From positions 1 through 64,000 of the forward strand of contig NZ_VOLO01000007.1 of NCBI RefSeq assembly GCF_007954365.1: DNA of 64,000 nt, read 5' to 3'. Below the pieces are notes generated by a model. The model saw nothing but the letters and a program-made list of their open reading frames with translations. It had not been told where the DNA came from and did no database searches. The DNA is from Frigoribacterium sp. ACAM 257 (GTDB lineage Bacteria > Actinomycetota > Actinomycetes > Actinomycetales > Microbacteriaceae). The position numbers and the translations under genes were made by a program. Shown in pieces: positions 3,897 to 63,801 of the stretch (its first letter is position 1; each line of letters starts with the position of its first letter).

Positions 3897-4789
3897 CTGG
3901 CCGTGGAGGCCCGGGGCGGCTCGGCGACGACGAACGTCGCGTCGGGCAGGCGTCTGCGCATCACGGCCACCGCCTCCTCGTTGCTGTCGACCAGCACGTA
4001 GCGGCGCCCCAGCGCCTCGGCGACCGCGCCGAGCGTGCCGCTGCCGGCGAAGAAGTCCAGCACCCAGTCTCCCTCGCGCGACGACGCCTGCACCATCCGG
4101 CGCAGCACCCCCTCGGGCTTCTGCGTCGGGTAGCCGGTCTTCTCGCGCCCCGTCGGCGAGACGATCGTGTGCCACCAGACGTCGGTCGGCAATTTGCCGC
4201 GCGCGACCTTCTCGGGCGTCACCAGCCCGGGCGCCATGTACGGCTCGCGATCGACGGTCTCCGAGTCGAAGAAGTACCCCTTCGGGCTCTTCACGTAGAC
4301 GAGGATCGTGTCGTGCTTCGTCGGCCACCGGTTGCGGCTCTTGGCGCCGTAGTCGTAGGCCCAGATGATCTCGTTGAGGAACGAGTCGCGGCCGAACAGG
4401 GCGTCGAGCAGCACCTTCGCGTAGTGCGCCTCGCGGTAGTCGAGGTGCAGGTAGAGCGTGCCGTCGTCGGCGAGCAGCCGCCACGCCTCGGCGAGCCTCG
4501 GCTCGAGGAACGACCAGTAGTCGTCGAAGCGGTCGTCGTAGCGCATCAGGTCGCCGCGGATCCGCTCGTAGCCGAGGCCCTTGAAACCGGTCACGGCGGT
4601 CACCGAGTCGGGCACGCTGCGCACCGACGTCGTCGCGCGCCGCGTCTGGGGTCGACCCGTGTTGAACGGCGGGTCGAGGTAGACGACCGTGAACGCTCCG
4701 TCGGGCAGCGTCGAGGTCACGTCGAGGTTGTCGCCGTGGACCACGAGACTCGAGGAGGCGCGGGTCCAGTCGACGGGCATGGTCGCCAT
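3893..4789 (-). CDS. Site-specific DNA methyltransferase, beta-class amino-methyltransferase
   Basis: This 298-residue protein carries motif IV DPPFNTG (residues 39-45) ahead of motif X TGYPTQKPEGVLRRMV and motif I LDFFAGSGT near residue 245. That permuted order defines beta-class N6-adenine/N4-cytosine methyltransferases using S-adenosylmethionine. LDPPF is more typical of N6-adenine enzymes. No restriction endonuclease or specificity subunit is adjacent, so it appears to be an orphan enzyme that could act in epigenetic regulation or replication timing rather than in restriction. The start at 4789 is the first Met; Met4 is an alternative. One copy of the AGGAGGCGCGGGTC motif lies in its 5' end (4753-4766). 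The recognition sequence is unknown. Confidence 0.88.
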   Translation of the reverse strand: MATMPVDWTRASSSLVVHGDNLDVTSTLPDGAFTVVYLDPPFNTGRPQTRRATTSVRSVPDSVTAVTGFKGLGYERIRGDLMRYDDRFDDYWSFLEPRLAEAWRLLADDGTLYLHLDYREAHYAKVLLDALFGRDSFLNEIIWAYDYGAKSRNRWPTKHDTILVYVKSPKGYFFDSETVDREPYMAPGLVTPEKVARGKLPTDVWWHTIVSPTGREKTGYPTQKPEGVLRRMVQASSREGDWVLDFFAGSGTLGAVAEALGRRYVLVDSNEEAVAVMRRRLPDATFVVAEPPRASTAS

Positions 4790-4827
4790 CCTCTCGCACC
4801 GCGGGACAGCGCCCGAGCCACCGGGCG

Positions 4828-4833
4828 TACCGT
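4828..4833 (+). promoter_or_regulatory. -10 hexamer TACCGT for the small GNAT gene (leaderless)
   Basis: TACCGT is six bases before the ATG at 4840; no ribosome binding site is visible. Confidence 0.6.
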
Positions 4834-4839
4834 GTCGGG

Positions 4840-5124
4840 ATGAGCACCACAGTCGAGAACCGCCCCGACCAGAACCAGTACGTCCTCGTCGAGGACGGCA
4901 GCACGATCGGCCTCGCCGCCTACGACGTCGTCGGCGACGAGATCCGCTTCACGCACACCGAGATCGAGCCCGCCCGCCGCGGCGCCGGCCTCGGGGCACA
5001 GCTCGTGCAGGGTGCGCTCGACGACGTCCGCTCGGAGACGTCGCTGCGCGTCGTGCCGATGTGCCCGTTCGTCGTCGACTGGGTCGACGAGCACGTCGAC
5101 TACCAGGAGCTGCTGACCCGCTAG
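4840..5124 (+). CDS. Small GNAT-like N-acetyltransferase (YjdJ/COG2388 type)
   Basis: At 94 residues this is a minimal GNAT fold. EIEPARRGAGLGAQLVQGALDDVR (about residues 46-69) contains the RRGAGLG acetyl-CoA pyrophosphate loop, and PMCPFVVDWVDEH matches the conserved C.F...W...H end of the YjdJ-like single-domain family. It should bind acetyl-CoA; the acceptor is unknown for nearly all members. It is transcribed divergently from the methyltransferase, with both starts within about 50 bp. The start is fixed by the leaderless -10 element. The family is clear, the biological role is not. Confidence 0.85.
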   Translation: MSTTVENRPDQNQYVLVEDGSTIGLAAYDVVGDEIRFTHTEIEPARRGAGLGAQLVQGALDDVRSETSLRVVPMCPFVVDWVDEHVDYQELLTR

Positions 5125-5174
5125 CTAGGTCCTGACCTCGGGCTCGGCCCGCACCGGCTCGGCCCGGACCTCAC

Positions 5175-5234
5175 CTCGAGTGGTCAGTTCCTGTCGTTCC
5201 CATGAGCGGGAGGGACGGGAACTGACCACTCGAG
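5175..5234. terminator. Long inverted repeat between convergent genes (17-bp perfect arms)
   Basis: CTCGAGTGGTCAGTTCC at 5175-5191 is repeated inverted and exact at 5218-5234; pairing continues imperfectly inward to give a stem of nearly 28 bp. It lies between the ends of the GNAT gene and the lipoate ligase gene, a position suited to a bidirectional terminator. Confidence 0.65.
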
Positions 5235-5303
5235 GGTCCGAGCACGGGGGCGAGTCCCGATCGTCGCGACCGACCTCGGCGGCCCGGCCCCCGCCTCCTC
5301 GGG

Positions 5304-7406: not shown

Positions 7407-7443
7407 GGAGGGTGCGGAGGAGGCGCGGAGCGCGCCGGGCAGG

Positions 7444-8365: not shown

Positions 8366-8401
8366 TTTCGACATCGAGGAGGCGCTGGTCACGCCGACAG
8401 G

Positions 8402-10072
8402 TCAGGCCGCGTCGGCGGGGAGGTCGACCACGAACCGGGCGCCGCCGAGCGGTGCCGTCTCGACCCGCACCGAGCCCCCGTGCACCCGCACGATCTCGGC
8501 GACGATGGCGAGGCCGAGACCGCTGCCGCCGGCGTCGCGGTCGCGGGCCTCGTCGAGCCGGACGAAGCGCTCGAAGATGCGCACGTGGTCCTCCGGCGCG
8601 ACTCCCGCGCCGTCGTCGTCCACGGTCAGCACGGCACGCCCCCCAGGAGTCTCGACCAGCCCGAGGGCCACGGTCGAGCGGGCGTGCCGGGACGCGTTCG
8701 CGACGAGGTTGCGGACGACCTGGCCGAGCAGCCCCTCGTCGCCGCGCACACGGGCAGGGCCCACCGCCGTCGCGTCGACGGAGACACCCGGACCAGTGCC
8801 CGCTGCCGATCGCAGACGCGCCGCCTCGGTCAGCACGAGGTCGTCGAGGTCGACGGGGCGGCGGGCGACGCCGAGAGCGCCCTCGTCGGACCGGGCGAGG
8901 ACCAGCAGGCCCTGCACCAGGGAGGTGAGGCGCGCCTCCTCGCCGAGGACGGTGCCGGCGAGCGCCCGTCCGTCGATGCTGTCGGGGTGCAGCAGGGCGA
9001 CCTCGGCGTGCTGCCTGATCGTCGCGAGCGGCGTCTTGAGCTCGTGCGAGGCGTCGCCGACGAAGCGCCGCTGCGCCGTCGCGGAGGCGTCGAGCCGGTC
9101 GAGCATGCCGTTCAGGGTCGACGCGAGCCGCGACACCTCGTCTCCCCCTCCCGGGTCGGCGAGGCGGTGCGACAGGTTCGCGGCGGTCACCTCGGCGACC
9201 TCGCGGCGCATCGACTCGACCGGGCGCAGCGCCCGCCCGACCACGAACCAGGTCGTCACGCCCAGCACGAGCAGCGCCACGGGGACGGCCACGCCGAGCG
9301 TGAGCAGGCTGGCCGAGGAGGCGGCCTGCGCCTCGTCGAGGGAGCGCGCGGCCACGACGTCCCACCGGGTCGTGACGGTCTGGACGTCGTCGGCGGAGTC
9401 GTCCGACGACTCGTCCGAGCCCGAGGAGGCGGCCGCGTCGTCAGCTGCCCGGGCGGCGGCGTCCTCGGCGGCGTCCTCGGCGGCGTCGCGGGCATCCTCG
9501 GCGGCGTCCCGCGCAGCCTCGGCGGCGTCGTCCTCGTCGAGGGCGTCGTCGTCGGACGAGGACTCCGACGGCTCGGGCACAGGGGAGGGACTCGACGACG
9601 GGCTCGGGCTGAGGCTCGGCGATGCGGTCGACGTCGCAGTCGTCGCCGACTCGGCGCCGTCGGCCTCGACGACGAAGTCGTCCCCGTCGAGCGAGACCCG
9701 GCTGCCGGAGGTCACGCCGGCGAGCTCGCGTGCGTGCTCGGCGAGGTCGTCGTCGCCGCCCGTCGCGACGAGCCTGCCGGAGGAGTCGAAGACCGCCACG
9801 AGCGCACCGTCCGCGTCGCCGGAGACGGCGACGGCAGGACTCGAGCCGCCCGCGAGGGCGGCGACTGCACGGTCGACGTCGGCGGACGCGGCAGACCGCG
9901 GGGCGTCCGCGAGCACCGCCTGCTGCACCAGCGCGAAGACGATCGCGAACGCGCCGAGGGTGAGGGCCACGGCGAGCACGGCGGCCGCGGTGATGCGGAG
10001 GCGCAGCGAGCCGCGGCGGCCACGAGGACCGCGGCGACCACGGCGGCCGACGCGACCGGCGTCGTCAGCCAC
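8402..10072 (-). CDS. Sensor histidine kinase with acidic extracytoplasmic domain
   Basis: The GTG at 10072 overlaps the stop of the response regulator by eight bases, indicating translational coupling; the frame open upstream of it is a shadow. The 556-residue protein has TM1 (about residues 25-48), an extracytoplasmic domain of about 190 residues with a very acidic, low-complexity stretch (repeated AAEDARDAAEDA and SSDD), TM2 (about 245-270), HAMP, HisKA with the phospho-acceptor in DASHELKTPLA (about residue 341), and HATPase_c with N box NLVANASRHA, DDDGAGVAP and GGSGLGLAIV. It should autophosphorylate and pass phosphate to the OmpR-type partner. The signal is unknown; the acidic domain suggests cation or envelope-charge sensing, which is inference. 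Confidence 0.92.
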   Translation of the reverse strand: MADDAGRVGRRGRRGPRGRRGSLRLRITAAAVLAVALTLGAFAIVFALVQQAVLADAPRSAASADVDRAVAALAGGSSPAVAVSGDADGALVAVFDSSGRLVATGGDDDLAEHARELAGVTSGSRVSLDGDDFVVEADGAESATTATSTASPSLSPSPSSSPSPVPEPSESSSDDDALDEDDAAEAARDAAEDARDAAEDAAEDAAARAADDAAASSGSDESSDDSADDVQTVTTRWDVVAARSLDEAQAASSASLLTLGVAVPVALLVLGVTTWFVVGRALRPVESMRREVAEVTAANLSHRLADPGGGDEVSRLASTLNGMLDRLDASATAQRRFVGDASHELKTPLATIRQHAEVALLHPDSIDGRALAGTVLGEEARLTSLVQGLLVLARSDEGALGVARRPVDLDDLVLTEAARLRSAAGTGPGVSVDATAVGPARVRGDEGLLGQVVRNLVANASRHARSTVALGLVETPGGRAVLTVDDDGAGVAPEDHVRIFERFVRLDEARDRDAGGSGLGLAIVAEIVRVHGGSVRVETAPLGGARFVVDLPADAA

Positions 10073-10742
10073 CCCGCGCCTCCAGCCGGTACCCGGCCCC
10101 GCGCAGCGTGACGATCGACTCGCGGCCGAAGGGCCGGTCGACCTTGTTGCGGAGATGCCGGACGTACACCTCCACGATGTTCGGGTCGCCCTCGAAGTCG
10201 TCGTTCCAGACGCCGTCGAGCACCTCGCGCTTCGTGACCACGCTGCCCGCACGGCGCATCAGGAACTCGAGCACGGCGAACTCGCGACTCGTCAGCTCGA
10301 TCTGCTCGTCGCCGCGCCGGACGTCGCGCGACGCCGGGTCGAGCCGGAGGTCGCCGGCTTCGAGCACGACCGGACGCTCCCGGGCCCCGCGGCGGACGAG
10401 CGCACGGAGGCGCGCGAGCAGCACCGCGAACGAGAACGGCTTCGTGAGGTAGTCGTCGGCCCCGGTGTCGAGGGCCTCGACCTGGTCCCACTCGCCGTCC
10501 TTGGCCGTGAGCATGATGACCGGCGTCCAGTCGCCTCCTTCGCGCATCGCCCGGCAGACGGCGTAGCCGCTCATGCCGGGCAGCATGATGTCGAGGACGA
10601 CCACGTCGTAGCTGCCCTCGCGGGTGCGCCAGAGGGCGTCTGTACCGGTGCCGGCCACGTCGACGGCCATGCCCTCGGCCTCGAGCCCGACGCGGAGCCC
10701 CTCGGCCAGGGTCGGCTGGTCCTCGACGACGAGCACGCGCAC
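10065..10742 (-). CDS. OmpR/PhoB-family response regulator
   Basis: I choose the GTG at 10742 because CCCCTTCCT on the plus strand (AGGAAGGGG on the message) lies six bases ahead; an in-frame ATG at 10769 is possible but would add nine residues outside the receiver fold. The 225-residue product has a receiver domain (VEDQ acidic pair, VVLDIMLPG phospho-Asp near residue 51, MLTAKD, DYLTKPF Lys) and a winged-helix DNA-binding domain (LTSREFAVLEFLM, then NIVEVYVRHLRNKVD and the wing RGAGYRL). It is the first gene of a two-gene operon with the kinase and is probably autoregulated through CTGAAG repeats at 10799-10826. Confidence 0.93.
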   Translation of the reverse strand: MRVLVVEDQPTLAEGLRVGLEAEGMAVDVAGTGTDALWRTREGSYDVVVLDIMLPGMSGYAVCRAMREGGDWTPVIMLTAKDGEWDQVEALDTGADDYLTKPFSFAVLLARLRALVRRGARERPVVLEAGDLRLDPASRDVRRGDEQIELTSREFAVLEFLMRRAGSVVTKREVLDGVWNDDFEGDPNIVEVYVRHLRNKVDRPFGRESIVTLRGAGYRLEARGG

Positions 10743-12319: not shown

Positions 12320-13704
12320 GCGCGATGTTCCGCTCGCTCGGCCTCTACAACTACCGGCTCTGGTTCGGCGGCGCGCTCGTCTCGAACACGGGCACGTGGA
12401 TGCAGGCCACCGCGCAGGACTGGCTCGTGCTCACCCACCTGACCGACCACGACGCGACCGCGGTCGGCATCACGATGGCCCTGCAGTTCGCGCCGCCCAT
12501 CTTGCTCGTGCCCGTCACGGGGCTGATCGCCGACCGGTTCGACCGCCGCCGCATGCTGATGCTCACCCAGGGCACGATGGCGCTGCTCGGCCTGGCCCTC
12601 GGCCTGCTCGTGCTCACCGACGTCGCGCAGCTCTGGATGGTGTGGGTCTTCGCGCTCCTGCTCGGCACGGTCAACGCGATCGACGCCCCGATCCGACAGA
12701 GCTTCGTCTCGGAGCTCGTGCCCCCCGGCCACCTCTCGAACGCCGTCTCGCTGAACTCCGCCTCGTTCAACGGCGCGCGCCTCCTCGGCCCTGCCGTCGC
12801 CGGCGTGCTGATCGCGAGCGTGGGCACCGGCTGGGTGTTCCTGATCAACGCGGCGTCGTTCGCCGCGGTGCTGCTGTCGCTGCGCTTCATCCGCGTCTCT
12901 CAGCTGCAGCACAAGCCGCCGGTGTCCCGGGCGAAGGGGCAGATCCGCGAGGGGTTCCGGTACGTCAAGGGGCGCCCCGACCTGCTCGTCGTCTTCACGA
13001 TGATCTTCGTGATCGGCACCTTCGGCCTCAACTTCCCGATCTTCACGTCGACGATGGCGAGCGTCGAGTTCGGCGTGGACGCCAGCGGGTTCGGCCTGCT
13101 CTCGTCCTGCATCGCCGTGGGGTCGCTGACCGGCGCCCTGCTCTCGGCGCGACGGGAGCGCCCGCGGATGCGGGTGCTGGTGCTGGCCGCCGCCTCCTTC
13201 GGGGTGACCTGCACCGTCGCCGCGCTGATGCCCAGCTACTGGACGTTCGCCGCCGTGCTCGTCGCCGTCGGGCTCTCGTCGATCACGCTGATGACCACGG
13301 CCAACAGCACCGTGCAGCTGTCGACCGCGCCCGAGATGCGCGGCCGCGTGATGGCGCTGTACATGGCGATCTTCACGGGCGGCACGCCGCTCGGCGCCCC
13401 GATCGTGGGCTGGGTCGCCGACACGGCAGGGCCCCGCTGGGCGATCGGCGTCGGTGCCGCCGCCGGCTTCGTCGCCGCCGGGATCGCGGTCGTCTGGCTC
13501 GTGCGCCGACAGCACCTGCGGGTGCGCCGGGTGGCACCGGTCGCCGCGGCCGCGGACGCCGGGGTCGTGCGGCGGATCGCGCCGCGGCTCGTGCCGCACT
13601 TCACCGTCGAGCACGACGGCGACGGGGGCAGGCCCGCCCGCGACCGACGCGACGAAGCGGCCGCCGTGCTCGCCGCGGACGAGGTCGCCGCGCGCACGTC
13701 TTGA
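12316..13704 (+). CDS. MFS transporter, MFS_3/EntS-like exporter
   Basis: The GTG at 12316 overlaps the marR stop; an ATG at 12325 is the alternative start. The 462-residue protein begins FRSLGLYNYRLWFGGALVSNTGTWMQATAQDWLVL, the hallmark of MFS_3 (transmembrane secretion effector/EntS) exporters, and has about twelve helices with the motif A-like loop ADRFDRRRMLM. The C-terminal 60 residues are charged and cytoplasmic. Cotranscription with marR points to efflux of a small toxic molecule or siderophore-like compound. The substrate is unknown. Confidence 0.9.
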   Translation: MSAMFRSLGLYNYRLWFGGALVSNTGTWMQATAQDWLVLTHLTDHDATAVGITMALQFAPPILLVPVTGLIADRFDRRRMLMLTQGTMALLGLALGLLVLTDVAQLWMVWVFALLLGTVNAIDAPIRQSFVSELVPPGHLSNAVSLNSASFNGARLLGPAVAGVLIASVGTGWVFLINAASFAAVLLSLRFIRVSQLQHKPPVSRAKGQIREGFRYVKGRPDLLVVFTMIFVIGTFGLNFPIFTSTMASVEFGVDASGFGLLSSCIAVGSLTGALLSARRERPRMRVLVLAAASFGVTCTVAALMPSYWTFAAVLVAVGLSSITLMTTANSTVQLSTAPEMRGRVMALYMAIFTGGTPLGAPIVGWVADTAGPRWAIGVGAAAGFVAAGIAVVWLVRRQHLRVRRVAPVAAAADAGVVRRIAPRLVPHFTVEHDGDGGRPARDRRDEAAAVLAADEVAARTS

Positions 13705-17222: not shown

Positions 17223-17870
17223 ATGAGCAACGACGCTCCCCCCGCCGACACTAACTCGTCCCGTCTCGTGGACGTCGTCCGGCTGATCGCCCAGACCTGC
17301 GTCGACAACGAGGCGTACTTCTGCGACCTCGACGCGGTCGCGGGCGACGGCGACTTCGGCTACTCCCTGGCGCGCGGCTTCGAGACCGTCCTCGCCGACC
17401 TCGACCAGTTCGACCACGACGACCTCGGGGCTTTCCTGCAGAAGGTGGCCACGACGATGAGCAGCCGGATGGGCGGCACCTCGGGCCCGATCTGGGGCAC
17501 CGCCTTCCTCCGGGCCGCGATCACGATGAAGGGCAAGAGCGAGACCACGCCCGACGACACGGTCGCGATGCTCCGGGCCGCGATCGAGGGCATCAAGAAG
17601 CGCGGCGGCGCCGACGTCGGCGACAAGACCCTGCTCGACGCGCTGGTGCCCCTGACCGACGCCGTCGAGGCCGACGTCGCCGCGGGCACCGACGCGGCCG
17701 GCACGGCACGGCACGGCGCCGAGGTCGCGCGGGCCGCCGCCGAGGCCACCGCGAGCCTCCAGGCACGACGGGGCCGCGCCTCCTACACGGGCGAGCGGAG
17801 CATCGGGTCCCCCGACCCCGGAGCGATCGCGGTCGCCGTGCTCGCCGAGCGCGTCGCGGACGCGTGGTGA
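17223..17870 (+). CDS. dhaL: Dihydroxyacetone kinase subunit DhaL (nucleotide-binding)
   Basis: The ATG at 17223 follows GAGG-type Shine-Dalgarno sequences. The 215-residue protein has the DhaL metal-nucleotide motif CDLDAVAGDGDFG (about residues 37-49; the position after GDGD is Phe where His is common), MGGTSGPIWG, GDKTLLDAL and ASYTGERSIGSPDPGA. DhaL binds ADP or ATP and passes phosphate to the ketone held covalently by DhaK. PTS-type systems need DhaM to rephosphorylate ADP; no dhaM or PTS gene is present, so this may be an ATP-exchanging pair of a DAK-like sugar kinase. The aldolase-phosphatase context argues for a ketose rather than glycerol route. Confidence 0.9.
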   Translation: MSNDAPPADTNSSRLVDVVRLIAQTCVDNEAYFCDLDAVAGDGDFGYSLARGFETVLADLDQFDHDDLGAFLQKVATTMSSRMGGTSGPIWGTAFLRAAITMKGKSETTPDDTVAMLRAAIEGIKKRGGADVGDKTLLDALVPLTDAVEADVAAGTDAAGTARHGAEVARAAAEATASLQARRGRASYTGERSIGSPDPGAIAVAVLAERVADAW

Positions 17871-19891: not shown

Positions 19892-20737
19892 CTACGCCTC
19901 GCGCGTGATCTCCACGGTCACGAACAGCGACGACGCGCCCGACCCCGCGTAGACCCCGCGCAACGGCGGCACGTCGCGGTAGTCGCGGCCGTGGCCGACG
20001 ACCACGTGACGCTCGCCGATGTCGATCAGGTTGGTGGGGTCGTAGCCGTGCCAGGCACCGCAGAACCACTCGATCCAGGCGTGCGACTCTCCCGTGACGG
20101 TCTCGCGCAGCTCGGCCGACGGCCGGGGGTGCAGATACCCGCTGACGTACCGCGCCGGGATCCCCGCCGCGCGGAGCGCCCCCACGGTCACGTGCGCGAT
20201 GTCCTGGCAGACCCCGGCCCGGGCGGCCCAGCTCTCGGCGGCCGTCGTCTTCACGTTCGTGACGCCGGGCAGGTACTGCACCGCGCCTCCTACGCGCTGG
20301 CAGATCTCCATCGCGGTCGAGCAGGGCGACGTCGACGCCCCGCGGGCCTCGAGCGCCAGGTCGACGAGGTCGGCCGGCGGCGCGGTCAGCGGCGTCTGCT
20401 CGAGGTGCTCGACGAACTGGGCGGTGGCGCCGGCGACGCGGGCGAGGTCGTCCCAGCCGGTCGTCGTCTCGGGGTGCAGCACCGGCCTCAGCTCGACGGT
20501 CGAGGTCGCCGTGAGCGAGAGCTGCCGGTGCGGCAGCAGCACCTCGAACGCCGACACCCGGGTGCCCCAGTAGTCGACGTACTCGTGCGTGCCCGCCGCC
20601 GGGTCGATGCGGAGGTGGGACGACAGCACGAACTGCCCCTCGGCGTGCGCCGGCAGCATGCGCGCCTCGTTGTAGCTCGCGACGGCCTCCCCGGCGTAGG
20701 AGAAGCCGGTGTGGTGACGGATCCGCAGCCGGCTCAC
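19892..20737 (-). CDS. Transglutaminase-like cysteine protease/transferase (COG1305)
   Basis: This 281-residue cytoplasmic protein begins MSRLRIRHHTGFSYAGEAVASYNEARMLP, the conserved N-terminal beta domain of bacterial transglutaminase-like proteins. The triad is visible: Cys in AGVCQDIAHV (about 176), His in ESHAWIEWF (about 218) and Asp in YDPTN (about 230). It ends a three-gene operon with the alpha-E protein (overlap 4 bp) and the circularly permuted ATP-grasp protein. This triad is widely conserved and thought to make or process a peptide-like bond, but the substrate remains unknown. The 3' end is five bases from the convergent GH114-like gene. Confidence 0.93.
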   Translation of the reverse strand: MSRLRIRHHTGFSYAGEAVASYNEARMLPAHAEGQFVLSSHLRIDPAAGTHEYVDYWGTRVSAFEVLLPHRQLSLTATSTVELRPVLHPETTTGWDDLARVAGATAQFVEHLEQTPLTAPPADLVDLALEARGASTSPCSTAMEICQRVGGAVQYLPGVTNVKTTAAESWAARAGVCQDIAHVTVGALRAAGIPARYVSGYLHPRPSAELRETVTGESHAWIEWFCGAWHGYDPTNLIDIGERHVVVGHGRDYRDVPPLRGVYAGSGASSLFVTVEITREA

Positions 20738-49507: not shown

Positions 49508-50949
49508 GCGTCGTGCCGCTCGGAGTCGGCGGCCGGGGTGGACGCGACCGCAGCGTCGTCGGCGCCCTGTCCCAGGGTCGGGGCGGCGCCTCCTCGGCTG
49601 CGGTAGTACAGGAACACCCCGGCGCCGAGCACGAGCCAGACGAGCCCGCCGATCTTCGCCTCGGGCGCCGCGTTCACCAGCACGTAGCCGATGATCAGGA
49701 ACCCGATCACGGGCACGACGAGGTGCAGCAGCCAGTTGCGCGACTTCTTCTTCACGACGTAGTGCACGACGACCGAGACGTGCAGCAGCATGAAGCCGAA
49801 CAGCGCGCCGAAGTTCACCAGCGACGCGATCAGGTTGATCTGGCCCACGAAGAACAGCACGAGCACGGCCGACAGCGCCGACACGACGAGGATGGCGGCC
49901 TGCGGCACCTTGCGCGTGTTGATCTTCGACAGGAACGCCGGCAGCTGCTTGTCGCGGCTCATCGAGAAGAGGAGGCGCGAGGTCGCGGCCTGCGCCGCCA
50001 TCGCGTTGGCGATGCCCACCGCGAGCACGTTCACGACGAAGAACGCCGTCGCCCAGCCGCTGTTCGACGCGGCCCTGACCAGGTCGAAGAACGCGTTGCC
50101 GGCCTCGCCCTCGGGGAACGAGTCCCGGCCCCCCGCGAGCGCGCTAGCCAGCCAGGTCTGCAGGACGAAGCAGAACGCCACGATGAACAGGGCGATGATC
50201 ATCGCCTTGCCCGCGCCTCCTCGCTTGCCGGTGCTCTCCTCCGACAGCGTCGAGATGCCGTCGAAGCCCAGGAAGCTCAGCACCGCGATCGACAGCGCCG
50301 AGGCGATCAGGGGCGCGGTGACCTTGCTGGAGTCCCAGATCGGGTCGGTCGTGAACTCGGCGCCGGGGATGGTGCCGTTGTTGAGCGCGATCACGGCGAT
50401 GATGACGAAGATCGCGATGAACACGACCTCGATCGCGAGGAACACCCGGTTCATCATCTTGATCGAGCTGATGCCGAGCAGGTTCACCGCGGTGTTGATC
50501 GCGACGAAGATGAGCGCCCACATCCAGCGGGCGCTGCCCGGGAAGATGCCGATCATCGACTCGGCCGCGAACACGTAGAGCAGCGTCGGTACGAGCAGGT
50601 AGTCGAGCAGGATCGCCCAGCCGGCGAAGAACCCGGCGATCGGGTGGATGCCGCGGCCGACGTACGAGAAGACCGAGCCGGCGAGCGGGATCGACTTCGC
50701 CATCTGCGCGTAGGCGAGCGCCGTGAAGATCATCGCGATGAGGCCCACGAGGTAGACCAGCGGCACCATGCCCGACGACGCGTTGTAGACGGTGCCGAAG
50801 ATCGCCCACGGCGCGATGGGCACCATGAAGATCAGGCCGTAGATGAGCAGGTCGACGGTCGAGACCGACCGCTTCAGCTCCTGCTTGTAGCCGTACTGCT
50901 CGAGCTGCTGCTGGTTGCTCAGCTCGGGTGACGCGGTCTTCTCGGACAT
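49504..50949 (-). CDS. APC-family amino acid permease
   Basis: This 481-residue transporter has twelve hydrophobic segments, starting ELKRSVSTVDLLIYGLIFMVPIAPWAIFGTVYNASSGMVPLVYLVG, and SLSEES-type loop ISTLSEESTGKRGGAGKAM between helices 6 and 7, typical of amino acid/polyamine/organocation permeases of the putrescine or glutamate:GABA subgroup. The Ser/Gly helix 1 region matches substrate binding. It lies between the amidase gene (4-bp overlap) and the alpha/beta hydrolase gene (125 bp), probably importing the amine or amide consumed by those enzymes. Specificity unknown. Confidence 0.92.
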   Translation of the reverse strand: MSEKTASPELSNQQQLEQYGYKQELKRSVSTVDLLIYGLIFMVPIAPWAIFGTVYNASSGMVPLVYLVGLIAMIFTALAYAQMAKSIPLAGSVFSYVGRGIHPIAGFFAGWAILLDYLLVPTLLYVFAAESMIGIFPGSARWMWALIFVAINTAVNLLGISSIKMMNRVFLAIEVVFIAIFVIIAVIALNNGTIPGAEFTTDPIWDSSKVTAPLIASALSIAVLSFLGFDGISTLSEESTGKRGGAGKAMIIALFIVAFCFVLQTWLASALAGGRDSFPEGEAGNAFFDLVRAASNSGWATAFFVVNVLAVGIANAMAAQAATSRLLFSMSRDKQLPAFLSKINTRKVPQAAILVVSALSAVLVLFFVGQINLIASLVNFGALFGFMLLHVSVVVHYVVKKKSRNWLLHLVVPVIGFLIIGYVLVNAAPEAKIGGLVWLVLGAGVFLYYRSRGGAAPTLGQGADDAAVASTPAADSERHDA

Positions 50950-51074
50950 GGTGTCTCTTCTCGGGTCGAGGCGGGTGAACGACGAGGAGGTGCGGTGGGG
51001 GTGGGACGGAGGAGGTGCGGGAGGCGCGGGTCGCGTCGGTTCAGGGAGCGCGACCCGCGCCGGTCAGGAGGGAG

Positions 51075-52086: not shown

Positions 52087-52860
52087 ATGACGACGAGCGA
52101 GACGACCGCCTCCGGCGCCCTCGACGCTCCCCTCGAGCCGACCACGCGCGCCGACGACATCACCGACCGCCTGGTCACCGCGATCGCGACCGGCGAGTAC
52201 CTGCCCGGCCAGCGCCTCCCCGCCGAGCGCGAGCTCGCGACCTCGCTGCGCGTCGGGCGCATGACCGTGCGGCAGGCTCTCGCGCGGCTCGTCGAGCAGG
52301 GGCTGATCGAGACGCAGCGCGGGCGCGGCGGCGGCTCGTTCGTGCTCGCGCAGGACTCCCGCCCCGAGCAGGACGCCCGATCGACGTCCGCCGTCGCGCG
52401 GCGCACGCTCGCGGCCCGCTGGTCGGACCTCAGCGACACGAGCGCCGCCATCGGACGCCTGCACGGCACCGTCGCGGAGGCGGCCGCCGAGAACCGCACC
52501 GACGCCGACGTCGTCCTGCTCCGCGAGCGGCTCGAGGCCTACCGCGCCGCCGACTCGGGGCTCGCGTCGCAGAAGGCCGACGAGCTGCTGCACGTGGCCA
52601 TCGCCGAGGCCGCCCACAACGCCGTGCTGCGCGACGTCCTGCTCGAGCTGGAGGCGCGGGTCAGCATCGCCGCGCCGGCCCACCCCTGGGGAGGGCCGGA
52701 CGGCATGCGCGCGATGGAGCTGCGCGCGCTCGCCGAGCACGAGGCGATCGTCGACGCGATCAGCGCCGGGCGTGCGCGCGAGGCGGCGTCGCTGGCCCGG
52801 GCGCACGTCGGCATCGACCTGGAGCTGCTCGAGCGCGTGGTGCGCGGCGGCGGCGCCTGA
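52087..52860 (+). CDS. FadR-subfamily GntR transcriptional regulator
   Basis: This 257-residue protein has an N-terminal winged helix (ADDITDRLVTAIATGEYLPGQRLPAERELATSLRVGRMTVRQALARLVEQGLIETQRGRGGGSFV, about 22-85) and a C-terminal all-helical FCD ligand domain with the His/Asp/Asn metal-ligand pattern (LHVAIAEAAHNAVL, LAEHEAIVDAISAG). FCD regulators sense organic acids or amino acids. It is divergent from the hydrolase-permease-amidase genes and a palindrome lies in the shared promoter region, so it probably represses that operon and itself. Confidence 0.92.
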   Translation: MTTSETTASGALDAPLEPTTRADDITDRLVTAIATGEYLPGQRLPAERELATSLRVGRMTVRQALARLVEQGLIETQRGRGGGSFVLAQDSRPEQDARSTSAVARRTLAARWSDLSDTSAAIGRLHGTVAEAAAENRTDADVVLLRERLEAYRAADSGLASQKADELLHVAIAEAAHNAVLRDVLLELEARVSIAAPAHPWGGPDGMRAMELRALAEHEAIVDAISAGRAREAASLARAHVGIDLELLERVVRGGGA

Positions 52861-54174: not shown

Positions 54175-57100
54175 GTGGCTCGACCTGCCTGGGTCACGAG
54201 CGTGCGCCGCCGTCCCGCGGGCGCCGCCTCCCTCGTCGTGCTCTCGGCCCTCGCCGTGCTGATCTCGGTGCTGGCGCCGATGCTGCTCCGGGCCGTCCAG
54301 CAGCAGGGCCTCGCCGAGGCGACCGCCCTGTCGCGGGTCGACGACCTGAGCCTCGTCGTCGTGTCCGACCTCTACGGCGACTCGACCCTCGTGGGCATGT
54401 CGAACGGCCGCGACGTCGTCGAGTCGGTCGACGCGGGCCCGGTGTGGCGCGCCCCCGTGGTGGCCGCGGAGTCGGCCGCCGACGTGCTCTGGACGTCGGC
54501 GAGCGACGCGGACGTGACGGGCGGCGCCCGCGTGTCGAGCCTCCTCCGCGACGACTGCGGCGACACCGTGCTCGACGAGGGCACGTGCCCCGTCGGGAGC
54601 GACCAGGTGATGGTGTCGTCCGCCGTCGAGGGCGTGGCCGTCGGCGACGTCCTGACGGTCGTCACGGACGGCGACCAGGTCGAGCTGACCGTCAGCGGGC
54701 GCTACGACCCGACGCGGGACGACGGCCGGTTCTTCGCCGCCCCCTCCCGCGCCGTGCGGGTCGACGTCCCGAGCGCCGACGACCTCGTGGTGACGTCGGA
54801 CGGCTTCGACGCCTTGCTGCTGAACGCCAAGGTCTACGCCGCCCTCGTCCCGTCGCGGCCGCTCGCCCTCGACGACGTGGCCCGGGTCCGTGCCGACGCC
54901 GCCGCCCTCGAGGTGGCGACCCTCGGCACGGACGGCGCCGCCGCCCGTGCCAGCCTGCGCACCGGCCTCACCGGCGTGCTCGGCCAGGTCGACCGGCAGG
55001 CCGACGCGGCCGCCGTCATCGCCGCGGCCACGGCGCTGCAGGCCCTCGCGCTCGCCTGGTTCGCAGTCGCGCTCGTCGTGCAGCGCCTCGCGCGCGTCCG
55101 CGCGGCCGAGTGGGGCCTCGCGCGGCTGCGCGGCCTGACGCGCAGCCGCTGGCTCGCCACGGTCTTCACCGAGCCCGCCCTGGCCGTCGCGCTCGGCGCG
55201 GTGCTCGGGGCGCTGGCCGGCTGGGGCTCGGCCGCCGTCGCGGCCCGGACCTGGCTGGGCGACGCCGTGCGCGTCGAGCCGACCAGCCCGCTCGTGGTGG
55301 GCGCCGCCTCCCTGGCACTCATGGGGTCGCTCGTCGCGCTCGGCGTGGCGAGCCTGCGCTCGGCGCGGGTGCCCCTCGACCAGCTGCTCGGCGGGTCGGC
55401 CGACCCGAGACGGCTCGGTCGGCTCGGCGTCGTCGTGCAGGCCGGCCTCGCGCTCGTCACCGTCACCGTGCTCGGCGCGCTCGTCACGCAGGGCGAGGCC
55501 ACCGGCCCGGGCGTCGCGCTGCTCGCGCCCAGCCTCGTCGCCGTGCTCGTCGGCGTCGGCGCCCTCCGGCTCGTCGCCCTGCTCGCCGGCCGCTCGGCCC
55601 GACGACCGCCTCGCTCGCTCGGCGCTCTGCTCGTCACGCGACGGCTCGGCCGGACGCCGTCGGTGCTCACCGCGGCCGTGCTCGTCTGCCTCGGCGTGGC
55701 GGTGACGGGGTGGGCGAGCCAGGTCGCCGTGACGGCCGACCGCCTGCAGGTCGACCGGGCCCGCGCCTCCGTGGGGGCCTCCAGCGTGCTGAGCGTCGGC
55801 GTCCGTGACGACGTGGACTTCGTCGGCGCGGTGCGCGCCGCGGATCCCGACGGCGACCGGGCGATGGCCGTCGACGTGCTCCGCCGCGGGCAGGGCGTCG
55901 GCCGCATCGTCGCCGTCGACACGGAGCGCCTCGGCGCGGTGTCCGCCTGGTCGGCCGGCTGGAGCTCCGCCGGCACCCCGGGGCGCCTGGCCGAGCTGCT
56001 CGCCCCGCCGGTCGGCGACTCGTTCGTGCTGACCGGCTCGAGCCTCTCGCTCGACGTCGCCGACGTGACGACGATCGCGCCGCAGGGGCTCACCGTCGAG
56101 GGGTTCCCGACCGACCTCGCCGACGTGTCGCTCCGCGTGGTGGTGCAGGCGGCCGACGGCTGGCACACGGTCGACCTCGGCGACCCCCGCGACGGCACCC
56201 TGACGAGCGTGCCCGGCCGGTTCCCGTGCGAGGCCGGCTGCCGGGTCGTCTGGCTCGGCGTCACCAGCTCGCGCGCGACCACCCCGACCTTCGGCGTCGC
56301 CCTCACCGTGACCGGCATCTCGACCGACCAGGAGGCGGCGGCCGACACCGCCGACTGGCTCGCCCCCGACCGGTGGCGCGACCGCGTCGGAGAGGCCGTC
56401 GACCCCACCCGCCCGGCGACGACCGCGATCGCCGACGCGGTCGACCGGGGCGGCGCAGTGCCCGGGCTGGCGTTGTCGTTCCTCGACCAGCAGGGCGGCA
56501 ACACGGCGTCGATCGCGCCGCTCGACGCGCCCGAGCCGCTGTCGGTCGTCGTCGCCGACGGCACCGCGACGACCCCGTTCGCCGGGGTGGAGGGCGGCCT
56601 CGTCGGCGTCGCCCCCGACCTGACGTCGCGCGTGCTGGCCCAGGTCGGCCACGCCCGGATCCTGCCGCGCATCGGCGGCGAGGGGATCCTCGTCGACCTC
56701 CCGCTGCTCGACCGGGTCAGCGATCCCGGCGCGTCCGAGGCCGAGCACGAGGTGTGGCTCGCGCCGATGACGAGCGCCGAGGAGGCGCGGGTCGTCTCGG
56801 CCCTGTCCGACCAGGGCGTCGAGGTCGTCGGCACCAGGACCCTGCAGGAGGTGACGGCCGGGTACCGGCACGCGTCGCCGACCCGCGCCTCCTCGTTGGC
56901 CCTCGTGGTGGGAGCCGCCGCCCTGCTGCTGACGCTCGCCGCGACCGTGGCCGCGCGCGTCGTCTCGGCGCCGTCGCGGCGGGGCGACCGGGCGGCGCTC
57001 GAGTCGGCCGGGGTGCCCCGACGACGGCTGCGGCGAGCCGCGAGCCTCGAGGTGTTCCTGCCTCCCGCGGTCGGCACGGTGCTCGGCGGGGCGGCCGGGC

Positions 57101-57348: not shown

Positions 57349-58217
57349 ACGACGACCTCGCCCTGCTCTGCCGCGGGCTCGTGCACGTGTACCGCGAGGC
57401 GGGCACCGACGTCGCCGCCCTGCGCGGCGTCGACCTCGTCGTGCCCGCCGGGCAGCGCGTCGCTGTGCTCGGCCCGTCGGGCTCGGGCAAGTCGACGCTG
57501 CTCTCGATCGTCGCGGGGGTCACGCGACCGTCGGCCGGCCGGGCCGAGGTGTTCGGCACCGACCTCGCGACCGCGCGACCCGGCACGGTCAGCCGCCTGC
57601 GCCGCGGGACGCTCGGGCTGATGATGCAGGGAGCGCCGGCCAACCTCCTCCTGCACGACGACGCCGTCGGCAACGTCGCCTGGGCCGTGGGCAGCCGCGA
57701 GCGGGACGACCTCCGCGTCGGCCGTCGCGTGCTGCGCGCCGCCGGGCTCGTGGGCGACCGGCGGCCGGTCGGCCTGCTGACGCCGACCGAGCAACAGGTC
57801 GTCGCGCTGGCCGTGGCGCTGGCTCCGCGCCCGCGCCTCCTGCTCGCCGACGAGCCCACGAGCCGGCTCGGGCCGGAGGCGCGCGACGCCCTGCTCGACC
57901 TGCTCGTCGAGACGACGTCGGAGGCGGGCACGGCCGTGCTCGTCGTCACCCACGACGACGCGGTCGCGGCGCGGATGCAGCGCATGGTGCACCTCCGCGA
58001 CGGGCGCGTCGGCGAGGAGGCCACCGCGGAGGGGCGCTGGTCGGTCGTCGGCACCGACGGCTCGCTGCAGCTGCCGCAGGCCCTGCGGGCCGACTGGTCG
58101 GACGGGGCGCTCGTCTCGGTCGAGGAGGTGGCGCCCGGCGAGCTGCGCGTGCGCCGGGTCGACGAGGCGGACGGCAGGTCGGGCGGAAGGACGACGGGAG
58201 GCGCGGGGCATGAGTGA
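57345..58217 (+). CDS. ABC transporter ATP-binding protein with intact Walker motifs but degenerate signature
   Basis: This 290-residue NBD has an intact Walker A ([13 protein letters not shown], about 43-55), Q-loop (LMMQGAP), Walker B with catalytic Glu ([14 protein letters not shown], about 163-176) and H-loop (VVTHDDA). The LSGGQ signature is replaced by LTPTEQQ. In an ABC dimer the signature of one subunit closes the ATP site of the other, so this subunit supplies the catalytic half of one site and a defective signature to the other. About 65 extra residues follow the NBD. Overlaps both neighbours (4 and 8 bp). Confidence 0.9.
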
Positions 58218-58980
58218 GCGCGATGCGGGCGCGGGCGCGGGGCCGTCGGAGCAAGCGGGGCAGCCGGAGCAAGTGGGGCAGCCGGTACGGCGGCGACTCG
58301 AGGCCGAGGAGGCGCGGGTCGGCTCCCCCGCGCTGAGTCTCGTCGGGCTGGTCGTGCGTCGTCCGGACGGCTCGCCCTCGGCCCCGGTCGAGCTCGTCCT
58401 CGCCCGGGGCGAGGCCGCCGTGCTGCTCGGCGACCCCGACGGGGTGCCCTCGGCGGTGCTGCGCGTGGTCGCCGGGCTGGAACGGCCGCTCGCCGGGCAG
58501 GTGCTCCTCGGGGGCGGGGACGGGGACGGCGCGGGTGCCGTCGACGGCAGCGGCAGCCATGGGGGCCGCGCCGGCCGCCCCGACGTCGGCCTCGTGACGC
58601 GTCAGCACGAGCTGCTCGGCTCGCTCACCGCGGCGGAGAACGTCGCCCTGCCGCTCCTCGCCCGCACGCCCGGGGCGCTCGCCTCGTGGACCGACGTCGA
58701 GCGGCTGCTCGACGGCCTCGGCGTCCCCGAGGCCAGCTGGCACAACCTGCTCGAGCAGCTCTCGGGCGGGCAGCAGCAGCGGGTCGCCGTCGCGCGCGCC
58801 CTCGTGGGGCGGCCCGCGGTCCTCTGCCTCGACGACCCCACGAGCGAGCTGGACCCGGGCAGCGCGGCGGTCGTGTGGGACGTCGTCGACGCCGCCCGCC
58901 GCGACGGAGCCGCCGTGCTCAGCGCGGGCTCGCCCGACGGCGTCGAGCGCGGGGGCGTCGCCCTGCTCAGCGTGCGCTGA
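58210..58980 (+). CDS. ABC transporter ATP-binding protein with intact signature but degenerate Walker A and H-loop
   Basis: This 256-residue NBD keeps a Q-loop-like region ([21 protein letters not shown]) and a perfect signature ([18 protein letters not shown], about 180-197), but Walker A reads [10 protein letters not shown] instead of GxxGxGK(S/T), the Walker B Glu is replaced ([11 protein letters not shown]) and the H-loop His is absent ([10 protein letters not shown]). It therefore cannot hydrolyse ATP itself but can complete the site of its partner. Its first ~35 residues are polar and variable. A 14-base motif copy is at 58307-58320. Confidence 0.9.
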
Positions 58981-59876: not shown

Positions 59877-59976
59877 GGCGGCACGAGCGAGGCGCCGAGG
59901 AGGCGCGTGGTACCCAGGTGCTACGCCCACGTCGGGCGTGCACCAGGGGCCGACGCGGGCGGGGCAGGGGTCTTCT

Positions 59977-60840: not shown

Positions 60841-62205
60841 ATGCCCGACAGCCCCCGCCCGCCGGGCGCCGTGCGCCGCTGGGCCGTGTCGCGTCCCGCT
60901 GTGGTTGACGCCCTCGTCGCCCTCGGCTACGTCGTCGTCAGCGGGACCGGACTCGCCCTGGTCTGGCTCGCGACCGGCACCGGCCGGCCGCTCGGCGTCG
61001 ACCTCCTCCTCGGCACGGCCGTCGCCGTCTCGGCTGCCGCGCTGCTCGTGCGGCGTCGGCGCCCCTGGCTGACCTTCGCGGTCGTGACGGCCACCGTCGC
61101 CGCGGCGGCCCTCGTCGACGGCGGGCTCGACCCGCTCGCGACCTGCCTCGCGCTCTACTCGCTCGCCGTGCACCGCTCGGTCCGCGCCGCGTGGATCGGC
61201 CTCGGCGTCTCCGTGCTCGCGGACGTGGCCGCCACGGCGGGGGCGGGGCTGGTGTCGAACCTGACGTCGGGCGTCGTCGGGGACGCGACGGGCGCCTCCG
61301 GCGTGCCCCTGCCCAGCCCGGTGCCCGTGCTGCTCACCCTCGTCGCGGTGCTCGTCGGGGTCGACGTCGGCGCCCGTCGACGGCGGCTCGAGGCTCTGGT
61401 CGAGCGGGCCGAGCGCCTCGAGCGCGAGCGCGACCAGCAGGCACGGCTCGCGACGGCGGCAGAGCGCGCCCGCATCACGCGCGAGGTGCACGACATCGTC
61501 TCGCACGGGATCTCGGTGATGGTCACGCTCGCCGAGGGCGCCGACGCCCTCGCCCGCAAGGACCCGACCAGGTCGCAGGAGGCGGTGGGCGAGATCGTGC
61601 AGGTCGGCCGGCGGTCGCTCGGCGACATGCGTCGACTGCTCGGGGCGCTGGGCGACGACGACGCGTCGGCCGGGGCGGACGGGACGAGCGGCGAGGCAGG
61701 CGCGGCGGGCGTCGGCGGCTCGACCGGGCTCTGGGCGCAGCCCCAGCCCGGGATCGACCAGCTGCCCGAGCTCGTGGCCTCGTTCCGGGCCGCGGGGCTG
61801 CCGGTGGTGGTCGAGTCCCGGGGCGTGCCCGCCGCCTCCGAGGCGCTCCAGACCGCCGTGCACCGGATCGTGCAGGAGTCGCTGACCAACGCCCTGCGGC
61901 ACGCGGGGTCGCCGACGCGGGTGCTGGTCGAGCTCGACTGGGGCGAGCAGGTGGCGGTGACCGTGACCGACGACGGGGCCGTCCGTGAGGAAGCCGCGAG
62001 GGACGCGGCCGGCGGGGCGGGCGCCGCTCCCCGGCTCACGGGAGTCGGCCGCGGCCTCGTGGGCATGCGCGAGCGAGCGAGGATGTACGGCGGCACCGTC
62101 GAGGCGGGCCCGCTGCCGGACGGCGGTGACGGCAGCGGCGACGGTGACGGCAGCGGCGGCTGGCGCGTCGCCGTCGTGCTGACCGACACGGAGGAGGCGC
62201 GGTGA
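60841..62205 (+). CDS. Sensor histidine kinase, HisKA_3 (NarL-type partner)
   Basis: This 454-residue kinase has four or five N-terminal helices (about 20-170), a coiled segment (RRRLEALVERAERLERERDQQARLATAAE) and a HisKA_3 domain with the phospho-acceptor in ARITREVHDIVSHGISVMV (about residue 219). The ATPase shows QESLTNALRHAG (N box), VTVTDDGAV (G1) and GVGRGLVGMRERARMYGGTV (G2), typical of DesK/LiaS-like kinases. Gly/Asp-rich loops interrupt the ATPase. The signal is likely sensed within or near the membrane. It overlaps the response regulator gene by four bases. Confidence 0.93.
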   Translation: MPDSPRPPGAVRRWAVSRPAVVDALVALGYVVVSGTGLALVWLATGTGRPLGVDLLLGTAVAVSAAALLVRRRRPWLTFAVVTATVAAAALVDGGLDPLATCLALYSLAVHRSVRAAWIGLGVSVLADVAATAGAGLVSNLTSGVVGDATGASGVPLPSPVPVLLTLVAVLVGVDVGARRRRLEALVERAERLERERDQQARLATAAERARITREVHDIVSHGISVMVTLAEGADALARKDPTRSQEAVGEIVQVGRRSLGDMRRLLGALGDDDASAGADGTSGEAGAAGVGGSTGLWAQPQPGIDQLPELVASFRAAGLPVVVESRGVPAASEALQTAVHRIVQESLTNALRHAGSPTRVLVELDWGEQVAVTVTDDGAVREEAARDAAGGAGAAPRLTGVGRGLVGMRERARMYGGTVEAGPLPDGGDGSGDGDGSGGWRVAVVLTDTEEAR

Positions 62206-62891
62206 CCGACATCAGGATCCTGCTCGTCGACGACCAAGAACTCGTCCGACGGGGAATGGCGATGATCGTGGACTCGACCGACGACCTCGTCGTCGTCGGC
62301 GAGGCGGCGACCGGCGAGGAGGCGGTCGTCCTGACCGCGGACCTGTCGCCCGACGTCGTCGTCATGGACGTCCGGATGCCCGGGATCGGCGGCATCGAGG
62401 CGACCCGGCGGATCGTCCGCGAGACGCCCTCTAGCCGCGTGCTCATCCTCACCACGTTCGACCTGGACGAGCACGCGTTCGGGGGGCTGCGGGCGGGGGC
62501 CAGCGGTTTCCTCGTGAAGAGCGCGCCGCGCGCCGAGCTGCTCGCCGGCATCCGGGCGGTCGCCGCGGGCGACGCCGTCGTCTCGCCGCGGGTCACCCGT
62601 GCGGTGCTCGACGTCGCGCTGCCGCGTCTGCCCCGTGGCGGCGCCGACGGCGGCGCGGGCGGCGCCGACGTGGCCGGCGCCCCCGTCGCGAGCCCGTTCG
62701 CCGTGCTCACCGAGCGCGAGCGGGACGTGTTCCTCGCGGTCGCGCAGGGCCTGAACAACTCCGAGATCGCCGCGCGGCTCGTCGTCAGCGAGTCCACGGT
62801 CAAGACGCACGTGGGCCGGGTGCTCTCCAAGCTGGACCTGCGCGACCGCGTGCAGGTCGTGATCCTCGCCTACGAGCACGGCCTCGTCTGA
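62202..62891 (+). CDS. NarL/FixJ-family response regulator
   Basis: The GTG at 62202 overlaps the kinase stop. The 229-residue regulator has a receiver domain (LLVDDQELVRRG, phospho-Asp in VVVMDVRMPG near residue 54, ILTTF, SGFLVKSAP Lys) and a LuxR-type helix-turn-helix (LTERERDVFLAVAQGLNNSEIAARLVVSESTVKTHVGRVLSKLDLRDR, about 168-215). The linker between the domains is Gly/Ala rich and longer than usual. Target genes are unknown; the DUF998-like gene upstream is a candidate. Confidence 0.94.
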   Translation: MTDIRILLVDDQELVRRGMAMIVDSTDDLVVVGEAATGEEAVVLTADLSPDVVVMDVRMPGIGGIEATRRIVRETPSSRVLILTTFDLDEHAFGGLRAGASGFLVKSAPRAELLAGIRAVAAGDAVVSPRVTRAVLDVALPRLPRGGADGGAGGADVAGAPVASPFAVLTERERDVFLAVAQGLNNSEIAARLVVSESTVKTHVGRVLSKLDLRDRVQVVILAYEHGLV

Positions 62892-62925
62892 CGCCGCGGC
62901 GGCCGCACCGGCCGCCGCACCCGCG

Positions 62926-62985
62926 GAACCCGCGCACACCCTCGAGCGCGCCGAGGGGCGCGCGCGGGTCCGAGGGATCCGCGCG
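62926..62985. repeat. Degenerate inverted repeat, GAACCCGCGC family
   Basis: GAACCCGCGCACACCCTCG (from about 62926) faces CGAGGGGCGCGCGCGGGTCC (from about 62951) with imperfect pairing, and GCGCGGGTCC then recurs downstream. It shares its core with hairpins at 13746 and 23922 and with an incomplete copy at 63970-63988. Confidence 0.6.
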
Positions 62986-63040
62986 GGTCCGCAGGGTCTG
63001 CGCGCAGCGGCAGCTCACGACGTCGAGCCCCTGCCCCCGC

Positions 63041-63096
63041 ACCCCTGAACGAGCACCGCACCCTCGAATTCGGGGGTGCGGTGCTCGTTCAGGGGT
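63041..63096. terminator. 23-bp perfect hairpin between convergent genes
   Basis: ACCCCTGAACGAGCACCGCA (from 63041) is matched exactly by the arm ending at 63096 over 23 bases, and CGAATTCG in the centre is also palindromic. It lies between the NarL-type regulator and the PH-like membrane protein genes. Confidence 0.75.
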
Positions 63097-63138
63097 GTCG
63101 CGCGGTGGTGCCGGTGAGTCGAGCGGACGTGCCGCGGT

Positions 63139-63801
63139 TCACCAGGAGGCGGGCAGCGGCGCCCCGGGCGCGGGTGGCCGCTCGACGAGCGCGACCGCGT
63201 CGTCGAGCCCGATGTGCCCCGGGAAGTTGTAGCGCCCGAAGCGGCCCGTCGGGTCGTTCGCGGAGGTCGGCATCGCGACGGAGGTGCGGCGGAGCGCCTC
63301 CGCGAGCACCCGGGTGGAAGTGCCGTCGAGGCGTGGGCCGCGCCGGTCGCGCAGGATGATCTCGACCCGCGCCTCCTTCGCGGTCAGACGGAGCACGAGC
63401 ACGTCCTGCCGCAGGGCGGGGTCCAGCGGCACGAGGGCCCGGTCGAGGTGGCTGAGGGCGACGGTGCGGCGGGTGCCGGCGCGCAGCTCGTCCGTGTCGA
63501 GGTTCACCCAGGGCTGCGGGTAGATCGCGTTGCGGACCGCGGTGACGCCCCAGAGCAGGGCCGCGATCAGCAGCACGCCGACCAGGAGGTTGCTCGGGAA
63601 CGGCACGACGTCCTCGAAGAGGCGTCCTGTCTGCAGGCCGAACCAGCCGAGGTAGGCGACGCCGAAGAGCGTCCCGTAGCCGGCCCACGACGACCACCAG
63701 CCGCGCTCGCCGATCCGCACCCAGCCGGAGGGGAGGGGCGCGTCGGGCGCGTCGGTCCCGCCCGGCTCGTCGGACCCGCCCGTGCGGGTGTCGCCGGTCA
63801 T
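63139..63801 (-). CDS. Two-helix membrane protein with PH-like domain, paralogue of the 45731 gene
   Basis: The ATG at 63801 overlaps the stop of a 38-codon ORF (ATGA). The 220-residue protein has a polar N-terminus, two membrane helices (about residues 42-60 and 72-92), a beta-rich region (WVNLDTDELRAGTRRTVALSHLDRALVPLDP...VLVLRLTAKEARVEIILRDRRGP) and the C-terminal motif NDPTGRFGRYNFPG, also found in the gene at 45731 (HDPTGAFGRYNFPG). Architecture and motif support a common family of unknown function, PH-like by appearance. A 14-base motif copy is at 63364-63377. Confidence 0.75.
   Translation of the reverse strand: MTGDTRTGGSDEPGGTDAPDAPLPSGWVRIGERGWWSSWAGYGTLFGVAYLGWFGLQTGRLFEDVVPFPSNLLVGVLLIAALLWGVTAVRNAIYPQPWVNLDTDELRAGTRRTVALSHLDRALVPLDPALRQDVLVLRLTAKEARVEIILRDRRGPRLDGTSTRVLAEALRRTSVAMPTSANDPTGRFGRYNFPGHIGLDDAVALVERPPAPGAPLPASW

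Follow-up and report, generated by a model that had tools for sequence, protein, structure and literature searches.

Passages of PMC7811141 name the Pasteurellaceae and the Neisseriaceae as bearers of uptake sequences. Eight dialects of the Neisseriaceae DNA uptake sequence (DUS), with ∼940–5,900 copies, are described in passages of PMC3630211. Here we describe a short word, built on the core GGAGGCGC, in a stretch of 64,000 nucleotides (the window) from Frigoribacterium sp. ACAM 257 (family Microbacteriaceae; positions 1 to 64,000 of contig NZ_VOLO01000007.1). On balance, this word is probably the Frigoribacterium dialect of a DUS for natural transformation.

As the Neisseriaceae DUS is presented in passages of PMC3630211 and PMC2397512, the Frigoribacterium word resembles it in being the most over-represented short word, with hundreds to thousands of copies per genome on both strands, in lying within genes as well as between them, in forming close inverted pairs and in having related dialects across the family. 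The Neisseriaceae DUS is also rare in acquired DNA, according to the same passages, and the Frigoribacterium word may resemble it in this. It differs in belonging to a Gram-positive phylum without an outer membrane, in being an unrelated, GC-rich word with fewer copies in the genome of the window (∼830 of GGAGGCGCGG), and in that its uptake role and receptor are putative. With the uptake signal sequence (USS) of the Pasteurellaceae it shares a core followed by weaker downstream positions; the word and the phylum are different, and the receptor is probably different too.

Transformation of the actinobacterium Micrococcus luteus depends on Flp/Tad pili, and passages of PMC4322843 give it ComEA, ComEC, DprA and tad genes, as found here (Tad from one compact locus); the term 'uptake sequence' is absent from that paper's main text. 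Among the papers listed by searches of the open-licence PMC literature, none had a title or abstract dealing with actinobacterial uptake sequences, which is weak evidence of novelty. Rhodoluna and Aurantimicrobium are Microbacteriaceae. Natural transformation has been shown in both, and passages of PMC11577799 mention no uptake tag.

A word shared by Frigoribacterium genomes

An earlier note on this DNA had claimed eight exact copies of the 14-mer AGGAGGCGCGGGTC and its over-representation. All eight were found where it placed them, and matches with up to two mismatches numbered 33 in the window; 100 dinucleotide shuffles averaged 4.5 and never reached 33. The source genome (G000, the genome of the window, in 14 contigs totalling 3.33 Mb; G001 to G015 and further such labels denote the compared genomes) contains 111 exact 14-mers, 50 forward and 61 reverse, and no copy of the reversed 14-mer. 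The density is 8 per 64 kb in the window against a genome mean of ∼2 per 64 kb. In an 859-kb sample of G000, comprising the window and 40 further stretches, AGGAGGCGCGG was the top over-represented 11-mer, homopolymer runs aside, with 138 copies where an order-5 Markov model predicts 13; the 214 copies of GGAGGCGCGG in this sample extrapolate to the ∼830 per genome given above.

Gene positions were taken from our own codon-usage caller. Coding copies of the exact 14-mer numbered 19 in the sample, against a mean of 1.2 and a maximum of 5 in 30 synonymous shuffles. Coding copies of GGAGGCGCGG, compared with the mean of 20 synonymous-codon shuffles, were 138 against 23.6 in G000, 62 against 6.3 in G002 and 132 against 14.6 in G004, an excess of ∼6- to 10-fold across three Frigoribacterium species. 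On these shuffles protein conservation and codon bias were dropped as causes, as the earlier note had argued for proteins and base composition, and the observed frequency is far higher than the codon-aware expectation by which it had proposed to judge the word.

The host was placed in Frigoribacterium by the window's SbcD, which is 89% identical to that of sp. PhB116, 86% to F. faeni, 76% to F. endophyticum and 72% to sp. Leaf263. The SbcD loci of these four relatives (∼21 kb) hold 9, 6, 15 and 9 copies of GGAGGCGCGG, respectively, and the reversed word once each; the Curtobacterium locus holds no GGAGGCGCGG. All 15 other Frigoribacterium genomes searched carry the exact 14-mer, in 85–447 copies divided about equally between the strands, and the reversed 14-mer at most once. 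In 44 genomes of other genera the exact 14-mer was found 0–4 times.

Taking the first G of the core as position 0, the A at −1 and the GGGTC at +8 to +12 are softer than the core itself. The core is strict in two of the three species sampled: G002 and G004 show few substitutions at positions 0 to 7, each with at most two copies, against 39 and 96 full 12-mers. The third, G000, has 65 full 12-mers beside enriched core variants, and is among the genomes with few exact 14-mers (85–111 in G000, G003, G006, G007 and G011). The variant AGGAGGCGGTGG is raised there: its 31 copies in 859 kb compare with 5 in the 200 kb sampled from G002 and 3 in the 440 kb from G004. The lineage may represent a drifting or relaxed dialect. 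A T occupies +16 at 37% of the 219 intergenic sites and at 34% of the 332 coding ones, compared with a background of ∼14%; it is not a codon effect. With this T the motif spans ∼18 bp, and little information lies outside −4 to +17.

Dialects in the family and genes for transformation

Eight further Microbacteriaceae genera were examined in 100-kb samples. A GGATGC-type word was seen in G016, G017, G022 and G023 and, more faintly, in G021, while AGGATCCG stood out in G019; the signal in G024 was weak and no word stood out in G018. The coding excess of a genus's own word over shuffles was 3.4- to 8-fold in six of six cases tested. Of 120 family genomes, 56 had CGGATGCCGC at four or more times its reversed control and 29 had 300 or more copies of it; those of ≤1.8 Mb had at most 29 copies. 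In the three Frigoribacterium of this set it occurred 30, 31 and 31 times, against controls of 49, 53 and 48. The same three held 394, 672 and 439 copies of GGAGGCGCGGG; another genus (g53) had 153 and 166 in its two genomes, G092 held 92 (control 44), and the remaining 114 at most 49. Counts of CAGGATCCG were compared between genomes, because its reversed-word control is poor (contains CTAG): two genomes of one genus had 816 and 677, G084 had 352 and the rest at most 161. In an order-wide sample, CGGATGCCGC reached up to 2,441 copies in ten family genomes (G184, control 71), whereas 139 genomes of other families had at most 133, near control in most, with ratios of 4–5 only at 12–42 copies.

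The dialects thus largely exclude each other between genera, and among the sampled genomes the GGATGCC dialect is confined to the Microbacteriaceae. Judged by eye, the words GGATGCC, GGAGGCGC and AGGATCC are related. We put at about even the broader proposal of a self-recognition uptake code of the Microbacteriaceae with at least three such genus-level dialects; its receptor would be something other than the type IV pilus, and it would be a Gram-positive uptake-sequence system of independent origin from those of the Neisseriaceae and Pasteurellaceae. Separately, AACCGACG occurs 10 times in the 21 kb of the Curtobacterium locus against 0.9 expected, and is perhaps another such word.

In G000, comEA (SLBB plus helix-hairpin-helix) lies directly upstream of comEC. 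A compact Tad locus encodes an ATPase, a T2SSF protein, a DUF4244 Flp-like peptide and TadE, and a type IV pilus locus encodes PilB, a PilT-like protein, PilC and a prepilin. ComEC was found in 39 of the 40 genomes searched, including all 16 Frigoribacterium, and DprA matches were found in each of these 16. Among the family genomes, CGGATGCCGC was at least four times its control in 37 of 62 with a PilB-type ATPase and in 19 of 58 without one, a weak association uncorrected for kinship. At L165:8871-12377, a single frame encodes a ComEC domain and a terminal DNA polymerase III delta C-terminal domain, either a comEC/holA fusion or an overlooked internal start. The split dprA genes of two Frigoribacterium span G005:C1:170167-188922 and G010:C1:603800-622942, as if an element had inserted in dprA.

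A probable uptake sequence and competing explanations

Across the three Frigoribacterium species, 332 of 551 GGAGGCGCGG sites are genic, on either strand (68 sense and 70 antisense among the coding sites of G000). Intergenic density exceeds coding density by factors of 2.8, 2.2 and 4.9 in G000, G002 and G004, and the median distance of the intergenic sites to a stop codon is 42.5, 23 and 34 bp, respectively. Of 31 neighbouring pairs spaced by 18–32 bp, 22 are head-to-head, 5 tail-to-tail and 4 direct, whereas at 33–200 bp (n = 48) the same orientations number 17, 14 and 17. Close inverted pairs with terminator-like hairpins, as in DUS, are present in Frigoribacterium as predicted folds. A repetitive extragenic palindrome or bacterial interspersed mosaic element (REP/BIME) was dropped on account of the proportion of genic copies and the low information beyond the motif.

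The word is also depleted in low-GC stretches, taken as a proxy for acquired DNA. In 49 stretches of G000 (15–20 kb; two pairs overlap by 2–4 kb, and one lies within the window), the nine below 70% GC held 9 copies of GGAGGCGCGG and the other 40 held 203, a five-fold fall, compared with ∼two-fold for permuted control words. Four of the nine had no copies; genes read by us from translations as metal-resistance-like, resolvase-like and glycosyltransferase-like lie there. The word has most of the sequence-level features of a DUS that were tested; we do not claim its membership as proven.

From the observed word, placement, dialects and machinery genes we infer a surface receptor that would prefer free double-stranded DNA carrying A-GGAGGCGC-GGGTC. 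DNA so tagged would come mostly from kin, and would be imported via ComEC and recombined with the aid of DprA. Tagged alleles would then enter more often, and copies would accumulate by molecular drive where tolerated, that is, in permissive codon frames, on both strands and near stop codons, where head-to-head pairs would double as hairpins. Receptor and word would change together, giving genus dialects. Because some strongly tagged genomes lack a PilB-type pilus, the type IV pilus was ruled out as the obligatory reader, and the candidate receptor would most likely be found in the Tad/Flp pilus or ComEA. If this is correct, sequence-specific uptake would extend beyond two Gram-negative families to one that is Gram-positive and lives in soil and on plants, and the dialects may serve as mating barriers. 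Since the word changes from genus to genus, a comparative-genomic search for the receptor would be direct, knowledge of the tag could ease transformation of these bacteria, and the family would offer an independent replicate for the question of drive versus selection on uptake sequences.

Several observations weigh against an uptake role. No uptake or transformation experiment in Frigoribacterium was found in the literature, and the receptor is a candidate. Three of the 16 Frigoribacterium (G001, G002 and G005) lack the PilB-type ATPase, G002 having the highest word count, and DprA is split into pieces ∼18 kb apart in G005 and G010 despite their 318 and 272 word copies. In G000 the core substitutions C5→T (11 against 0.9 expected) and C7→G (9 against 0.6) are enriched. 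In other genera, the intergenic density of the own word is just 1.0–2.6 times the coding density, and close pairs are few and of mixed orientation. The low-GC depletion is a proxy and not a pan-genome test of core versus acquired DNA. Finally, GGAGGCGCGG was kept against G004 (82% identity) in 4 of 23 cases, with controls at 16%; the samples are small, and the higher conservation in the named relatives comes from four genomes over one region.

With both directions counted, GGAGGCGCGG was kept in 32 of 49 cases against those four relatives (controls 28%) and in 6 of 9 against G002 (controls 20%). Where the earlier note had set conservation of the motif against that of the peptide, the word is retained in the four relatives at about double the rate of control words, with no excess over controls at 82% identity. 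Copies may persist in the short term and be replaced in the long term. As proof of an uptake role, site conservation is mixed.

The other functions suggested earlier (Chi-like recombination, segregation, nucleoid-protein binding, and methylation or repair) are possible, but fit less well than a DUS, which was not among the candidates then named. The best placed is a Chi-like signal, which we consider unlikely; here a helicase-nuclease of RecBCD, AddAB or AdnAB type would read the word on entering DNA and turn from degradation to recombination. Chi is a short, asymmetric, over-represented word, as is the present one with its hundreds of copies, scarcer in low-GC stretches, and it counts for this explanation that genus-specific Chi words are known. 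However, the 3.14-Mb contig G004:C1 shows no strand polarity, a point softened by the fact that not every Chi is polar, and neither a graded 18-bp motif nor hairpin pairs after stop codons would be expected. The strands are mixed in the sampled stretches of this one near-complete contig, in agreement with the mixed orientation noted earlier for the window. A replication-polar signal was dropped for lack of polarity there, and an FtsK-orienting polar sequence (KOPS) was ruled out by the mixed strands of that contig, without origin–terminus polarity.

Ranking below this, and also improbable, is a chromosome-wide binding site of a structuring or segregation protein. The ∼18-bp footprint is protein-like and is found on both strands, in coding and intergenic DNA. 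Moreover, G000:C6:868680-1210194 (∼342 kb) has no exact 14-mer, and GGAGGCGCGG is about half as dense there (22 in ten 20-kb stretches); the gap is possibly on the terminus side. For such a protein, however, the turnover of sites at 82% identity, the hairpin pairing and the wholesale change of word between genera would be odd, and no candidate protein was identified. A standardized transcription terminator or RNA element is very unlikely: all four head-to-head pairs near stops chosen for folding gave very stable hairpins (z from −5.8 to −9.6), but the one single intergenic window site folded gave no stable structure (z −0.6), and most sites are genic, on either strand. Least likely of all is a site recognized by a DNA methyltransferase or a restriction-modification system. 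The strict core in two of three species speaks for it, but restriction sites tend to be avoided rather than enriched, and the word, with its graded tail and T at +16, looks like a binding motif.

Copies in the window

The further copies of the 10-base core reported earlier are borne out, AGGAGGCGCG occurring 22 times in the window against 1.3 expected, whereas AGGAGGCGCGGTGC, given as a frequent form, occurs just 3 times. Two single-mismatch copies that had been placed near 51010 and 52650 lie at 51019 and 52649, and a third, at 8377, had been missed. The copy at 46362 is intergenic by our gene calls also. The copies are as follows.

4753..4766, + strand: exact 14-mer, antisense in called gene 3893-4789 (−)
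33615..33628, − strand: exact 14-mer, sense, reads EEARV
39736..39749, − strand: exact 14-mer, antisense in aroD-like gene (name from our reading), reads LTRASY
46362..46375, − strand: exact 14-mer, intergenic, 23 bp past called gene end 46339
56780..56793, + strand: exact 14-mer, sense, reads EEARV
56880..56893, − strand: exact 14-mer, antisense, reads PTRASS
58307..58320, + strand: exact 14-mer, intergenic by caller; within 5' part of open reading frame 58210-58980 if first start used
63364..63377, − strand: exact 14-mer, sense, reads KEARV
8377..8390, + strand: 14-mer with one mismatch
51019..51032, + strand: 14-mer with one mismatch, intergenic
52649..52662, + strand: 14-mer with one mismatch, genic
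7419..7428, + strand: GGAGGCGCGG, intergenic
10074..10083, − strand: GGAGGCGCGG, genic
17774..17783, − strand: GGAGGCGCGG, genic
20281..20290, − strand: GGAGGCGCGG, genic
23290..23299, + strand: GGAGGCGCGG, intergenic
24522..24531, − strand: GGAGGCGCGG, genic
27066..27075, + strand: GGAGGCGCGG, intergenic
29413..29422, − strand: GGAGGCGCGG, intergenic
29689..29698, + strand: GGAGGCGCGG, genic
40636..40645, + strand: GGAGGCGCGG, intergenic
46958..46967, + strand: GGAGGCGCGG, genic, conserved in four of four named relatives
50211..50220, − strand: GGAGGCGCGG, genic
55761..55770, − strand: GGAGGCGCGG, genic
57831..57840, − strand: GGAGGCGCGG, genic
58197..58206, + strand: GGAGGCGCGG, genic
62193..62202, + strand: GGAGGCGCGG, genic
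8931..8940, − strand: AGGAGGCGCG without following G
12776..12785, − strand: AGGAGGCGCG without following G
22714..22723, + strand: AGGAGGCGCG without following G
49970..49979, + strand: AGGAGGCGCG without following G
59898..59907, + strand: AGGAGGCGCG without following G

The copy at 46362..46375 is conserved in both named relatives that align there. At 40636..40645 the core GGAGGCGCG is conserved in all three that align, with diverged flanks.

A search of viral contigs with one window protein found no relative. The contig start carries G runs of 12 (window positions 6-17) and 38 (75-112), probably a sequencing or assembly artefact. Two other words were noted in these genomes. GAGTGGTCAGAA has 10 copies in a 200-kb sample of G002, against 0.03 expected. 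GTCGAGGGCGGGT is a separate, species-level repeat: 859 kb of G000 hold 31 copies (29 intergenic, several clustered), whereas the samples of G002 (200 kb) and G004 (440 kb) hold none and 2, respectively.

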